From Chloroflexota bacterium (GTDB lineage Bacteria; Chloroflexota; Anaerolineae; UBA2200): a stretch of 44,305 nt of DNA. The stretch is taken from NCBI GenBank assembly GCA_014360905.1, contig JACIWW010000025.1, forward strand, positions 1 through 44,305. The letters run 5' to 3'. Positions 6,939-17,200 of the stretch are shown here, piece by piece (the stretch's first letter is position 1; every line of letters starts with the position of its first letter). A model generated the notes under the pieces. It did not search any database, had not been told where the DNA came from, and saw nothing but the letters and a program-made list of their open reading frames with translations. The position numbers and the translations under genes are program-made.

Positions 6939-7034
6939 AGCGCTTAGTTGCCATAAATGCTCTATCAATGGTGGATACAAAAGTTCACCAGGCTGCGTTT
7001 TGAGGTAGGTAACCCGAGGAAGGCGAGTCAGGCT

Positions 7035-7313
7035 ATGGAGTTCACAGTTGAGTTTTTTGGTCTTCCGCGGCGTTTAAGCGGGGTCAAAGAAACCACGGTG
7101 CAAGTACCGGCGGGGGCTACGCTGCGTGATGTTGTTAAGGCATTGGCAGCCAAGTTCCCGGCCTTTTTGGGGGATCTGATTGATCCCAACAGTTACGAAT
7201 TGGAATCGCCTTACTTTTTCAATGTCAACGCACGACACGTTCCACGCAGTTTAGAGTACCAACCCAAGGAAGGGGAACGATTACTATTACTCTTTGTGGA
7301 GGCAGGAGGATAA
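7035..7313 (+). CDS. MoaD/ThiS-family ubiquitin-like sulfur carrier
   Basis: The 92-residue product from the ATG at 7035 has the beta-grasp pattern of MoaD (MEFTVEFFGLPRRLSG, VPAGATLRDVVKALAAKFP) and ends in the Gly-Gly tail (VEAGG) that E1-like enzymes adenylate and thiocarboxylate. MoaD supplies the dithiolene sulfurs of molybdopterin, so a copy next to a tungsten-pterin enzyme suggests dedicated cofactor supply. A longer reading from 6957 lacks a ribosome binding site, whereas GAGGAAGG (7016-7023) precedes 7035. The stop lies four bases before the AOR start and overlaps its ribosome binding site region, which suggests translational coupling. Confidence 0.85.
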   Translation: MEFTVEFFGLPRRLSGVKETTVQVPAGATLRDVVKALAAKFPAFLGDLIDPNSYELESPYFFNVNARHVPRSLEYQPKEGERLLLLFVEAGG

Positions 7314-7317
7314 AGTC

Positions 7318-9153
7318 ATGTATTGGGGCAAGATCTTACACATCGATGTATCTGAACGCAAGACGCACGTGCAGCGCGTAGACGAGGAGTGGTTGAGGAA
7401 GTATGTTGGCGGTGTGTGCATGGCCTCGCGGCTAGCCTACGAGAACATCCCAAAAGGTGCAGACCCACTAGGTCCAGAGAATGCAGTTTGTTTTGCCAAC
7501 AGCGCTTTCTCGGGCACGATGGTTCCCGTGGGAACCAAGTATGCAGTGGCCACCAAATCCCCGTTGACCGGATTCCTCGGCGATTGTCTGGCCGGCAGTT
7601 ATTTTGCCGCAGCGATGAAACGAGCCGGCTATGATGGCATCGTTGTCAAGGGCAAGGCGGATCGTCCCATTTGGATTTTCGTGGACGATGATGCAGTCTA
7701 TTTCAACGATGCCTCAGACCTATGGGGTATGGAGACTTTTGAAACGGAGGAAGCAATCCGTGCCAAAGTGGGCGATGAGCGTGTTCGCGCCTGCACCGTA
7801 GGCCCTGCGGGCGAGCGCCTAGTGCGTTTTGCCAACCTGACCAATGACCGTGGACGCCAGGCAGGACGAACTGGACCAGGCGCAGCCTTGGGAGCCAAGT
7901 TGGTGAAAGCTCTCGCGATCCGGGGCACCAAATCCGTCCGAGTGGCTGATCCTCAGAATTTGCTCGCGGCTTGCAAGAAACTGAACGAATTAGCCCAGAC
8001 AACCAAGACGGAAAAATACCGCATCCTAGGCACGCCCTCGAATGTGTTGAATATGAATCGGTTGGGCATTCTGCCTACTCGAAACTACCAGCAGGGAGAA
8101 TTTGAGGGCGCTGAGAAAGTCAGCGGCGAGTACATGCACGAACATTACACGGAAAAGGCTGTGGCCTGTGCTGGCTGTCCCATCGCCTGTGAGCAGATCA
8201 CACACGTGAAGGAAGGGAGTTACGCTGGAGCGAGGACCTCGATTGATTACGAATCCCTGTTCGCTCTGGGACCCAACTGTGGCATAGATTCTATGGCTGC
8301 TATCATTGCGGCTATTGATCGCTGCGATAGGTACGGTATGGATACCATGAGCACTGGCGTAACCATCTCCTGGGCCATGGAATGCTTCCAGCGTGGCATC
8401 CTCACCAAAGAAGACTTTGATGGCCTAGAACCGGTCTGGGGCAATGATCGTGCTGTGGTTGAGCTGGTGCGCAAAATCGCGTACCGTGAAGGAATTGGCG
8501 ATCTGTTGGCCGAAGGCGTCAAGCGTGCAGCAGCCAAGGTGGGCAAAGGTTCAGAACATTTTGCCATGCATGTGAAGGGCTTGGAATGCTGCGGCTATGA
8601 TGCACGAGGCATGCAAACCTTCGCCGTGGGCTGCGCCGTGGGCACGCGAGGCCCCTGCCACAACCGCTCTCTTGCTTATGAACCAGACGCAAAGGGAGAA
8701 GTGGACCGCTTGAAAGCTGGCCCTGAACGGGGGCGGCTAGCTAAGGAGACAGAAGAGTTCGCTGGTGTCTTTGACATCATGATGTTCTGCAAGTTCATTC
8801 GAGGCTGTTTCAAAGACATTTGGACCGAGATTCCTCAACTGTACACCTATACAACCGGCATCGCTATGACTTCTGAGGACCTGCACAAGCTGACGGAGCG
8901 ATCCTGGAACCTGAAGAAAGCATTCAACATTCGCGAAGGTTGGACAAAGGAGGATGACTGGCTTCCGCCACGCTGGCTCAAGGATCCCTTGCCTTCTGGA
9001 GGCTCCAAGGGGGCTTATGTGAAAGAGGATGACCTGCGCATGATGCTCCAGTCCTATTATGAGGCACGTGGCTGGACACCAGAAGGACTCATTCCCAAGG
9101 AAAAACTTATTTCCCTGGGATTGGATGACATCGCTGAGGATATAGGAGTCTAA
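7318..9153 (+). CDS. aor: Tungsten-dependent aldehyde:ferredoxin oxidoreductase (AOR family)
   Basis: A 611-residue enzyme of the AOR family (AOR_N plus AOR_C), which interconverts aldehydes and carboxylic acids, or catalyses other low-potential reactions, on a tungsten bis-pterin with a [4Fe-4S] cluster. The N-terminal domain MYWGKILHIDVSERKT, the stretch GSYFAAAMKRAGYDGIVVKG and TNDRGRQAGRTGPGAALGAK are typical. Cluster ligands are Cys284, Cys287 and Cys291 (CAGCPIAC) with Cys491 as the fourth, nearly the positions known in Pyrococcus furiosus AOR. The ATG at 7318 follows AGGAGG (7305-7310). The ferredoxin subunit gene follows after a single base. The family also contains BamB-type benzoyl-CoA reductases, so the substrate cannot be set from sequence alone; aldehyde or acid is the default. 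Confidence 0.92.
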   Translation: MYWGKILHIDVSERKTHVQRVDEEWLRKYVGGVCMASRLAYENIPKGADPLGPENAVCFANSAFSGTMVPVGTKYAVATKSPLTGFLGDCLAGSYFAAAMKRAGYDGIVVKGKADRPIWIFVDDDAVYFNDASDLWGMETFETEEAIRAKVGDERVRACTVGPAGERLVRFANLTNDRGRQAGRTGPGAALGAKLVKALAIRGTKSVRVADPQNLLAACKKLNELAQTTKTEKYRILGTPSNVLNMNRLGILPTRNYQQGEFEGAEKVSGEYMHEHYTEKAVACAGCPIACEQITHVKEGSYAGARTSIDYESLFALGPNCGIDSMAAIIAAIDRCDRYGMDTMSTGVTISWAMECFQRGILTKEDFDGLEPVWGNDRAVVELVRKIAYREGIGDLLAEGVKRAAAKVGKGSEHFAMHVKGLECCGYDARGMQTFAVGCAVGTRGPCHNRSLAYEPDAKGEVDRLKAGPERGRLAKETEEFAGVFDIMMFCKFIRGCFKDIWTEIPQLYTYTTGIAMTSEDLHKLTERSWNLKKAFNIREGWTKEDDWLPPRWLKDPLPSGGSKGAYVKEDDLRMMLQSYYEARGWTPEGLIPKEKLISLGLDDIAEDIGV

Positions 9154-9154
9154 G

Positions 9155-9643
9155 ATGGAGAAACAATTTCAACACATTGTTTGCGACCCCGACAAGTGTG
9201 TGGGTTGCGGAGATTGCGAGTTCGCGTGCTCTATGACGAAACACCAGGTTTTTGACCCAGCCCTTTCGCGCATTCGCAATGTGCGTATCGAGCCTATTGT
9301 CATGCTGTCCGTGTCGTGTCGCATGTGCAATGATGCCCCCTGTGTCCTGGCCTGTCCGCGCAACGCACTGACGCAAGATCCCGAGAGAGGTATTATTCGG
9401 GTGGACGAGGACAAGTGCGATGGCTGTGGCTGGTGCATCGAGGCTTGCGACTTTGGCGCAATTCTGCTCAACCCTGCCACGAAGAAAGTTGAGATTTGCG
9501 ATCTCTGTGCTGATCTGGGTGAGCCACAGTGCGTGTTGTACTGCGAAAAGAAGGCGCTTTCCCTGAGTGCTCCGGAAGTCGTGGCGCAGAAGACCAGGCG
9601 CGAGGTCGTCAGCAAACTGCTGCAAGAGCTTATAGGTAGTTGA
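9155..9643 (+). CDS. Four-cluster ferredoxin subunit of the AOR (HycB/BamC/AorA-like)
   Basis: The 162-residue protein has four cysteine quartets arranged as in the electron-transfer subunits of molybdenum and tungsten oxidoreductases: CVGCGDCEFAC, CRMCNDAPCVLAC, CDGCGWCIEAC and CDLCADLGEPQCVLYC, enough for four [4Fe-4S] clusters. It should take electrons from, or give them to, the AOR cluster and pass them along to the Hdr module. GGAG (9145-9148) lies just before the ATG, inside the end of the AOR gene. About 100 bases of structured non-coding DNA separate it from hdrA. Confidence 0.9.
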   Translation: MEKQFQHIVCDPDKCVGCGDCEFACSMTKHQVFDPALSRIRNVRIEPIVMLSVSCRMCNDAPCVLACPRNALTQDPERGIIRVDEDKCDGCGWCIEACDFGAILLNPATKKVEICDLCADLGEPQCVLYCEKKALSLSAPEVVAQKTRREVVSKLLQELIGS

Positions 9644-9660
9644 ACAAAACGAAACAAGGG

Positions 9661-9730
9661 AGTGGCGGATGAAGCGGAGACGCCTTGTCCGCCACTTCGT
9701 GTGAAAAGTGCCACGAAGTGGAAAGTTTTT
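9661..9730 (+). promoter_or_regulatory. Attenuator-like pair of mutually exclusive hairpins before hdrA
   Basis: Stem 1 pairs AGTGGCGGA (9661-9669) with TCCGCCACT (9688-9696). Stem 2 pairs CCACTTCGTG (9692-9701) with CACGAAGTGG (9712-9721) and is followed by AAAG and five T. The two stems share 9692-9696, so only one can form. Stem 2 with the T-run resembles an intrinsic terminator. This is the layout of an attenuator, or of a partial terminator that sets the ratio of AOR to Hdr proteins. Confidence 0.55.
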
Positions 9731-9744
9731 GCAAGGGGAAGTAG

Positions 9745-12210
9745 ATGAGCGAAAATGGGGATTTGAGAATCGGTGTATACGTTTGCCACTGTGGATCGAA
9801 CATCGGGGGTGTCATTGATCCCAAGGCAGTGGCGGAGTATGCGTTCACTTTGCCGGATGTGGTCTTTGCCACAGACCAACTTTATACATGCTCGGATCCT
9901 GGTCAGCGACAGATCCAGGAGGATATTCAGAAATACAACCTCAACCGTGTCGTCGTAGCTGCCTGCTCTGTTCGACTGCATGAGCCCACTTTCCGAGCTT
10001 GTGTCGCCCAGGCAGGGTTGAATCCGTTCCTGTTCGAGATGGCTAACATCCGGGAGCAGGATACGTGGGTGCATTCACATGAACCTGATGCAGCTCTGCA
10101 AAAAGCCAAGGAAGTGGTCGCGGCGGCGGTGGCTAAAGCTCGTTTCCTGACACCCCTGGACATGATCGAGGTGCCTGTTACCAAGGCAGCGATGGTCATC
10201 GGTGGTGGCATCGCTGGAATTAGCGCAGCGCTCGACCTGGCCGATATGGGCATTATGACCTACCTGGTTGAAAAGGAGCCGAGCATCGGGGGAAGGATGG
10301 CTCAACTCAACAAGACCTTCCCTACAATGGACTGTTCCATCTGAATATTGGCCCCCAAGATGGTTGACGCGTCGCGTCACCCGAATATCGAACTCCTCAC
10401 CTATACCGAGGTGAAACGAGTCGAGGGCTTTATCGGCAACTTCAAGGTCCTGGTGGAGGAAAAGCCACGCTATGTGGACATGGATCGCTGCAACGGCTGC
10501 GGTGCCTGTGCGCCTGTCTGCCCCATTGAAGTGCCTAATGAGTTCGAGGAAGGTATAGCACCACGCAAGGCGATTTACATCCCACAAAGCCAGGCTGTCC
10601 CATTGCGATATGTCATTGACATAGATCACTGCATCAAGTGCTACAAGTGTGTGGATGCCTGTGGCAAATTGGATGCGATTGACTTTAGCCAGCAGCCGAA
10701 GCAGAGATGGTTAGATGTGGGCAGTATTATCGTTGCGACCGGCTTTGACAGTTTCGATCCCTCTGAAGTTACCGAATATGGTTATGGTCGCTACGATAAC
10801 GTCATCACTACGCTGGAGTTGGAACGCATCAGCAATTCCGCCGGGCCAACCGCGGGCCAGATTATACGCCCCTCGGACAAGAAGTTGCCTCGGAAGATAG
10901 CTTTCATCCAATGCGTTGGCTCGCGCGATGAGCGCTTCAATCTGTACTGCTCTGGCTTTTGCTGCATGTATACAATCAAGAATGCAGTGCAGTGGAAGCA
11001 GACCTATCCGGACGCTGACATCACCATCTTCTATATGGACATCCGCACGCCTGCCAAGGGCTATGAGGAATTCTACCGACGAGCGCGTGAGATGGGCATT
11101 CGTTTCATCCAAGGGCGTCCTTCTATTATTACCGAAGATCCCCGAACCGGCAACCTGTTCATCCAGGCTGAAGATGTAGGTCTGGGACAGGTGATTGAGT
11201 TAGAAACGGAGTTGGTAGTCTTATCTACAGCGGCTGTGCCACGACTGGATACCGAGCACATGAGTTCCATACTGAATATCAGCCGCAGCCCAGGCGGATT
11301 CTTCATGGAATATCACCCCAAGCTGCGTCCGGTTGACTCACCCACCGATGGTGTCTTCCTGGCAGGCGCCGCTCAAGGGCCGAAGGATATCCCTGCTAGT
11401 GTAGCACAAGGCAGTGGTGCTGCAGCCCGGGCCGCGCGCATTCTCAATGCCGAAAAATGGGAGATAGAGCCCATAGTAGCTCACGTTTGGGAGGATCGCT
11501 GTATCTCTGCTCAGGGCAAGAAATGCGGCATCTGTGCAACCAAATGTCCCTATAATGCGATTGTCGTGGAGCAGGGCAAAGCGGCAGAGGTCATGCCTGC
11601 GAAATGCCACGGCTGCGGCGGCTGTGTGGCCGAATGCCCGCATAATGCTATTACTCAGATGCACTTCACAGACGCCCAGATCATTGCCCAGTTGCATGCT
11701 CTGCTGGCCAAAGAACCGGAGAAAAAGATTATTGCATTTATGTGCCACTGGTGTAGCTATGGCGGTGCAGACAACGCTGGAACCAGTCATTTTGAGTACC
11801 CCGCTTCCTCTCGAGGCATTCGCGTGATGTGTTCCGCACGTCAGGATCAGGACTTTGTCTACGAGGCATTCCGGCTAGGGGCGGGTATGGTGTTGGTCTC
11901 TGGCTGTCACCCACAAGACTGCCACTATATTACGGGGCAAAGAGTGGCGGCAGAGCGTTTTGAGCGGTTAGCAAAGCGTCTGGAAGAAATTGGCATCTCA
12001 CCTAAGCGTTTCCGTGTGGAATGGATCTCCGCAGCAGAGGGCGCCAAATATGCCCAGGTGATCCGTGAGATGGATGAGGTGCTCAGATCATTCGATCCTC
12101 AGGCGCTCAAAGAAGAGAATGAAAGAGTACGTCCAGAGCTAGAGCGGCGGTTGCGTCGTTTGCCCGAGATTCCAGACGTGGCCAAGGCTATTGAAAAGAC
12201 AGTCGCTTAA
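9745..12210 (+). CDS. hdrA: Selenocysteine-containing HdrA fused to MvhD
   Basis: Read through the TGA at 10342-10344 as selenocysteine (residue 200), this is one 821-residue flavoprotein. Frame and family sequence continue without a break: the part before ends [11 protein letters not shown] and the part after resumes [18 protein letters not shown], a stretch that is contiguous in HdrA proteins, with Cys or Sec at this site. An HdrA-type N-terminal part is followed by the FAD fold ([17 protein letters not shown], from residue 153) and two ferredoxin motifs ([11 protein letters not shown] from residue 249; [11 protein letters not shown]). Two more [4Fe-4S] motifs follow ([21 protein letters not shown]). 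The C-terminal MvhD domain begins near [15 protein letters not shown] and ends after GCHPQDCHY. HdrA carries the flavin that bifurcates electrons in methanogens and sulfate reducers. It is the hub of this locus. Confidence 0.88.
10342..10388 (+). promoter_or_regulatory. Bacterial SECIS-like element for Sec200 of HdrA
   Basis: The TGA (10342-10344) is followed 17 bases later by GGT (10362-10364), a bulged T (10365), GACGC (10366-10370), loop GTC (10371-10373), GCGTC (10374-10378) and ACC (10379-10381). This is eight perfect pairs with one bulged U and a G opening the loop, close in plan to the Escherichia coli fdhF SECIS, which also has a GGU stem base, a bulged U and a GU-containing loop. ATATT (10345-10349) and AATAT (10384-10388) could extend the base. 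SelB would bind it to deliver Sec-tRNA. Confidence 0.8.
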
Positions 12211-17162: not shown

Positions 17163-17167
17163 GAAGA

Positions 17168-17200
17168 ACCCCAAAGGTTCGTCGAACCTTTGGGGTTTTG
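17168..17200. terminator. Bidirectional terminator closing the AOR-Hdr-Flx locus
   Basis: AACCCCAAAGGTTCG (17168-17182) and its exact reverse complement (17184-17198) flank a single T, with further T on the plus side and A on the other. It lies in the 39 bases between the convergent polyferredoxin and GH63-like genes and can stop both. Confidence 0.88.

Follow-up and report, generated by a model that had tools for sequence, protein, structure and literature searches.

The window examined here, a 44,305-nucleotide stretch of a Chloroflexota genome (contig JACIWW010000025.1), carries a tightly packed run of redox genes in which an aldehyde ferredoxin oxidoreductase (AOR) module precedes an Hdr module. 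The gene order is a moaD-like gene, aor, a gene for a 4Fe-4S protein (FeS), hdrA, genes for an HdrC-like FeS protein and an MvhD-like protein, further redox subunits and a canonical terminator (Table 1). The genes around the AOR/Hdr junction are co-directional and, judging from their spacing, would form one operon. The longest gap in it, 101 bases, lies between the FeS stop codon (9641–9643) and the hdrA ATG at 9745; an earlier sequence-only reading of this DNA had called the gap between the AOR and Hdr parts non-coding, which is borne out.

Table 1. Features at and around the junction of the AOR and Hdr modules in the window
Feature	Position	Strand	Basis
MoaD/ThiS-family gene, upstream of aor	6957..7313	+	Pfam ThiS; NCBIfam moaD_arch below cut-off
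aor, aldehyde ferredoxin oxidoreductase gene (start codon uncertain)	7294..9153	+	Pfam AFOR_N + AFOR_C
4Fe-4S protein (FeS) gene, final gene of the AOR module	9155..9643	+	Pfam Fer4_11 and others
Stem I, long GC-rich hairpin between cistrons: 14 pairs plus 3 inner pairs, with one mismatch and a GAGA loop	9659..9698	+	−27.9 kcal/mol folded alone
Stem II, 10 bp, overlapping stem I at 9692–9696; lineage-specific alternative, rarely formed according to prediction	9692..9721	+	Stem search, fold
Downstream fold predicted alongside stem I; holds the CCAC-GAA-GTGG mini-hairpin (9711–9721)	9700..9733	+	MFE structure
T5 run, four bases past stem II, unconserved in relatives	9726..9730	+	Sequence
hdrA, opening gene of the Hdr module, with in-frame TGA at 10342–10344	9745..12210	+	NCBIfam HdrA2, 1101.1 bits (cut-off 1100)
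Canonical terminator closing the operon (comparison): 14-bp stem, then T-rich tail	17167..17197	+	Stem search

The in-frame TGA of hdrA is codon 200 (CSI-U-IL). A TGA occupies this codon in 29 of the 30 HdrA loci examined, the motif not being found in L173, and some more distant HdrA relatives have long open frames. The genome also encodes selB, detected above the cut-off. The codon probably specifies selenocysteine; selenocysteine-containing HdrA is known from other bacteria (PMC1794560).

Two perfect stems of nine and ten pairs with five bases in common had been reported in the gap, and both are present. The perfect core of stem I pairs 9661–9669 with 9688–9696 (9 bp, loop of 18), stem II pairs 9692–9701 with 9712–9721 (10 bp, loop of 10), and the shared bases are 9692–9696. 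The nine perfect pairs of stem I are, however, part of a longer hairpin than had been claimed, with 14 + 3 pairs and an energy of about −28 kcal/mol. The fold z-score of region 9640–9760 is −4.1, a value matched by none of 200 shuffles. When the gap was dinucleotide-shuffled 20,000 times, a perfect stem of at least 9 pairs occurred in 161 shuffles, one of at least 10 in 40 and an overlapping, exclusive pair in none; the whole window contains 13 such perfect stems against 6.25 (sd 2.0) in shuffles, and the pair in this gap is its only exclusive one.

Stem I was compared within the family using the window, L007 from the same genus, and L008 and L009 from two other genera of the family; L036 was taken to be the same genome as L007 and left out. 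The hairpins of the three relatives retain GGCGGATGA and TCCGCC, with outer and inner pairs altered on both sides. For stem I alone, 93.3% of cells are paired over 15 alignment pairs, and four of these pairs carry two-sided changes among the four family members. When both consensus helices are considered, 91.3% of 80 cells are paired and 9 of 20 pairs show two-sided changes; none of 500 shuffles reaches any of the both-helix measures and sliding of the partner gives at most 48%, figures that come from four sequences only and from shuffles that leave relatedness uncontrolled. The relatives have a small hairpin at about the same place downstream, the covariation of which is register-dependent and counts as weak evidence. 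The gaps of the four same-family genomes with aor and FeS ahead of hdrA have fold z-scores of −5.2, −5.5, −6.2 and −5.9, and stem I is strong in all four. The pattern of substitutions indicates that this main hairpin is under selection.

Structured gaps recur at the same junction beyond the family. Examination of 85 loci from Anaerolineae and relatives, 17 of them with no hdrA found downstream, yielded 68 gaps: 17 overlaps, 18 of 0–59 bases, 30 of 60–260 bases and three of more than 260. After removal of the duplicates L037, L050 and L095, 27 distinct gaps of 60–260 bases were available; the z-score is below −2 in 20 of them and below −3 in nine, and five further junction gaps include two below −2. 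Co-directional control gaps of the same length range, taken from the same loci and the window by means of a simple ORF caller and scored with 60 shuffles per gap, fall below −2 in 9 of 44 cases and below −3 in 6 of 44 (Fisher p 1.4e-5 for 20/27 versus 9/44); the proportions below −2 are 2/23 for divergent and 4/15 for convergent controls. With relatives collapsed by hand (the family; L062/L064/L071; L015/L051), 14 of 21 junction gaps have z below −2 (p 6e-4). A test for a minimum-energy hairpin of −15 kcal/mol, which gave 31/32 versus 20/44, was replaced by z-scores because such a threshold depends on base composition. From one family to the next, the hairpins are unrelated in sequence. Seven of the 27 gaps lack significant structure (z below −2) and, taken with the 17 overlaps and 18 gaps shorter than 60 bases among the 68, they make the device dispensable.

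Many Anaerolineaceae (L043, L049, L057, L067, L068, L077–L080 and others) have FeS and hdrA overlapping by 4 bases, an arrangement with no room for a hairpin, where translational coupling perhaps operates instead of uncoupling. The FeS proteins of Bathyarchaeota/Thermoproteota (L066, L076, L081, L088, L089, L090, L098, L104) are about 51–56% identical to that of the window; their genes are mostly followed by T-rich stretches, and hdrA was not found behind them.

An HdrA search brought in the remaining two genomes of the family, G003 and G005, in which moaD directly adjoins hdrA (loci L174 and L175) with no aor–FeS between them; the stretches fetched contained neither aor nor FeS. The Hdr module can therefore exist without an aldehyde oxidoreductase neighbour. 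The G003 gap has no significant structure (z +0.4). The G005 gap (z −1.4) is homologous to that of G004, from the same genus, and retains a shorter, imperfect stem, the outer pairs of stem I having been lost (−13.3 versus −23.0 kcal/mol). The strong stem is missing in both same-family genomes with moaD abutting hdrA, a small sample of two. Elsewhere in G005 there is another aor–FeS pair (L013), with no hdrA behind it and an FeS protein only 56–59% identical, and a long hairpin follows this pair (z −4.5). Among six bacterial FeS loci not followed by hdrA, z lies below −2 in two (L013 and L044) and no significant hairpin is present at the other four; the same analysis of archaeal FeS loci without hdrA behind them found a significant hairpin in none of eight. 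These few cases suggest that the strong hairpin is tied to the 3′ side of aor–FeS rather than to hdrA. A leader belonging to hdrA itself was judged less likely, because the strong stem is gone in both family genomes whose hdrA lacks aor–FeS, and because gaps are mostly short at HdrA homologues found in other contexts. For 17 such homologues fetched (L177–L193), the upstream genes of which were identified only by ORF length, six gaps of 50–300 bases received a z-score and two of these were below −2.

The leading explanation, held with middling confidence and based on sequence comparison, is that the intercistronic hairpin behind aor–FeS uncouples the AOR module from the Hdr module, chiefly by 3′-end protection, with weak termination perhaps contributing. 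The polycistronic mRNA would be cleaved or would decay in the 3′–5′ direction, and stem I would protect the 3′ end of the aor–FeS segment, so that more of the AOR module than of the Hdr module would be made, the ratio and its direction both being presumptive; weak internal termination may add to the uncoupling. The proposal that the element adjusts the ratio of AOR to Hdr proteins survives in this form, as the most plausible role of the main hairpin, but not through two competing states. The setting is that of a stabiliser, a stem-loop of −27.9 kcal/mol in a 101-base gap between co-directional genes. The tail behind stem I, GTGTGAAAAG, contains 2 U in 10 bases and no poly(U), which agrees with the SLOFE rules in PMC8219983, where a stabiliser has a U content of at most 5 and a poly(U) tail of at most 3. 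As the tail lacks a U run, stabilisation is favoured here and termination stays a rival.

As such a rival, stem I would work mainly as an intrinsic terminator, weak and internal to the operon: some RNA polymerases would stop behind the stem and fewer would reach hdrA. This is rather unlikely. The internal terminators of Clostridia have longer GC-rich stems and fewer U than canonical ones (PMC9045158), and several relatives of the window possess U-rich tails (L038 CTTTTTGTCT, L015 GGTTTTGTAT, L051 GGTTTTTACA and L014 TCTTTACTGC). The window, however, has no U-rich tract directly behind the stem, with 2 U in 10 bases after stem I and the T5 run four bases past stem II, whereas TTTT follows closely on the stem in those terminators of the window that are likely to be genuine. 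At least five T in the next 10 bases are found behind only 7 of 31 strong hairpins, a count based on outermost domains, which misplaces the tail in some gaps, such as that of L009. A stem lacking a U tract failed to terminate according to PMC9045158.

A stabiliser of the type found in selective RNA processing and stabilisation (SRPS) operons, or a weak internal terminator, is a known kind of element; what makes it interesting is that it recurs at one junction of the operon. The SRPS operons of Ruminiclostridium cellulolyticum (PMC4423207, PMC8219983) likewise have a stable stem-loop in an intergenic gap, behind upstream genes of an operon for complex subunits, and the window stem shares with them the published stabiliser sequence rule (PMC8219983). 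The window differs in belonging to another phylum and operon, in being known from sequence alone and in that the hairpin sequence is replaced completely between families. In Clostridia, the operons of ABC importers contain internal terminators that resemble stem I: the stem is long and GC-rich, has few U and is placed after the first operon genes (PMC9045158). The window stem differs from them in lacking any U tract, and termination is only a candidate function here. A literature search found no paper joining AOR, HdrA and Anaerolineae.

Tolerated gaps in GC-rich genomes might also gather non-functional palindromes through repeat insertion or drift. The wholly different sequences between families, the low-complexity or repeat-like gaps of L015 and L045, and z-scores below −2 in 9 of 44 control gaps are consistent with such an origin, but compensatory changes accompany identical arms within the family and the junction gaps are enriched over the control gaps. 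A search with the gap DNA gave the gap itself as the sole full match, a single copy in the genome, and GGCGGA–TCCGCC occurs 8 times in G000 versus 11 for the reversed control; with one full match and no excess of this motif, a dispersed palindromic repeat is ruled out. The hairpins of the two relatives tested are also single-copy in their own genomes, so repeat insertion is no explanation for those two. A non-functional origin is accordingly regarded as doubtful.

Translational control of hdrA, with the segment past stem I pairing with the ribosome-binding site, is very unlikely. In L007 and L009, a predicted pairing joins TCCTGT, located past stem I, to the Shine-Dalgarno sequence CAGGA/CGGGA. 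The GGGGAA stretch of the window, however, is 96–99% unpaired, the L008 stretch is largely open once the coding start is included, and the G005 gap shows no TCCTGT partner; the pairing, present in two relatives and not in the window, was rejected.

The sequence-only reading had treated the two stems as mutually exclusive, recognised with the T-run behind the second stem the arrangement of an attenuator, and proposed that the leader could sense a ligand. Stems I and II would then be alternative states picked by a ligand or a ribosome, and stem II with T5 would be the terminator. Overlapping perfect stems followed by T5 do exceed chance expectation. Transcription attenuators are elements of leader regions; the window resembles them in its two overlapping stems and nearby T-run, and differs in that no aptamer is seen, the T-run is not adjacent, the alternative stem is unconserved and the site is intercistronic. 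AAAG separates stem II from T5, and where the window has GTTTTTG, two of the three relatives read CGTTTGC and CGTCTAC and the third lacks a run. The stems do overlap, but they exclude each other only in part: when stem II is forced, stem I melts at its foot alone and retains an inner part of 7 + 3 pairs. Ensemble energies are −41.0 kcal/mol for stem I and −35.3 when stem II is forced, a cost of 5.7 kcal/mol; stem II is therefore predicted in about one molecule per ten thousand (P about 1e-4) at equilibrium, beside a strong stem I. From the order of synthesis, the nascent RNA would contain a complete stem I before the 3′ arm of stem II is transcribed, and from the coordinates a ribosome halted at the FeS stop codon would cover only about the foot of stem I. 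While stem I is kept with two-sided changes, its overlap with stem II is absent in L007, L008 and L009, all three of the same-family relatives that keep stem I. An Rfam search of the window returned no match and no ligand-binding family, and the gap itself is a short one that comes after a complete gene. An attenuator is expected to possess two alternative folds of comparable energy that are conserved as a pair, which is not the case here; the attenuator, hardly credible after this comparison, was dropped on account of the energy difference and the lack of conservation. The site is one strong, evolutionarily maintained hairpin rather than a two-state switch.

On a broader scale, it is tentatively proposed that uncultivated Anaerolineae have re-evolved, or completely rewritten, a hairpin at this junction many times over. 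The hairpin would be tied to aor–FeS and would set the stoichiometry of a complex that oxidises aldehydes and is probably electron-bifurcating, its position and strength being selected and its sequence free. If this is true, the setting of subunit ratios by hairpins, known from clostridial operons, would also apply to a redox complex in uncultivated Chloroflexota, and the position of a hairpin could be maintained while its sequence is replaced. The junction would also provide a hint, from sequence only, that AOR and Hdr subunits are not produced one to one.
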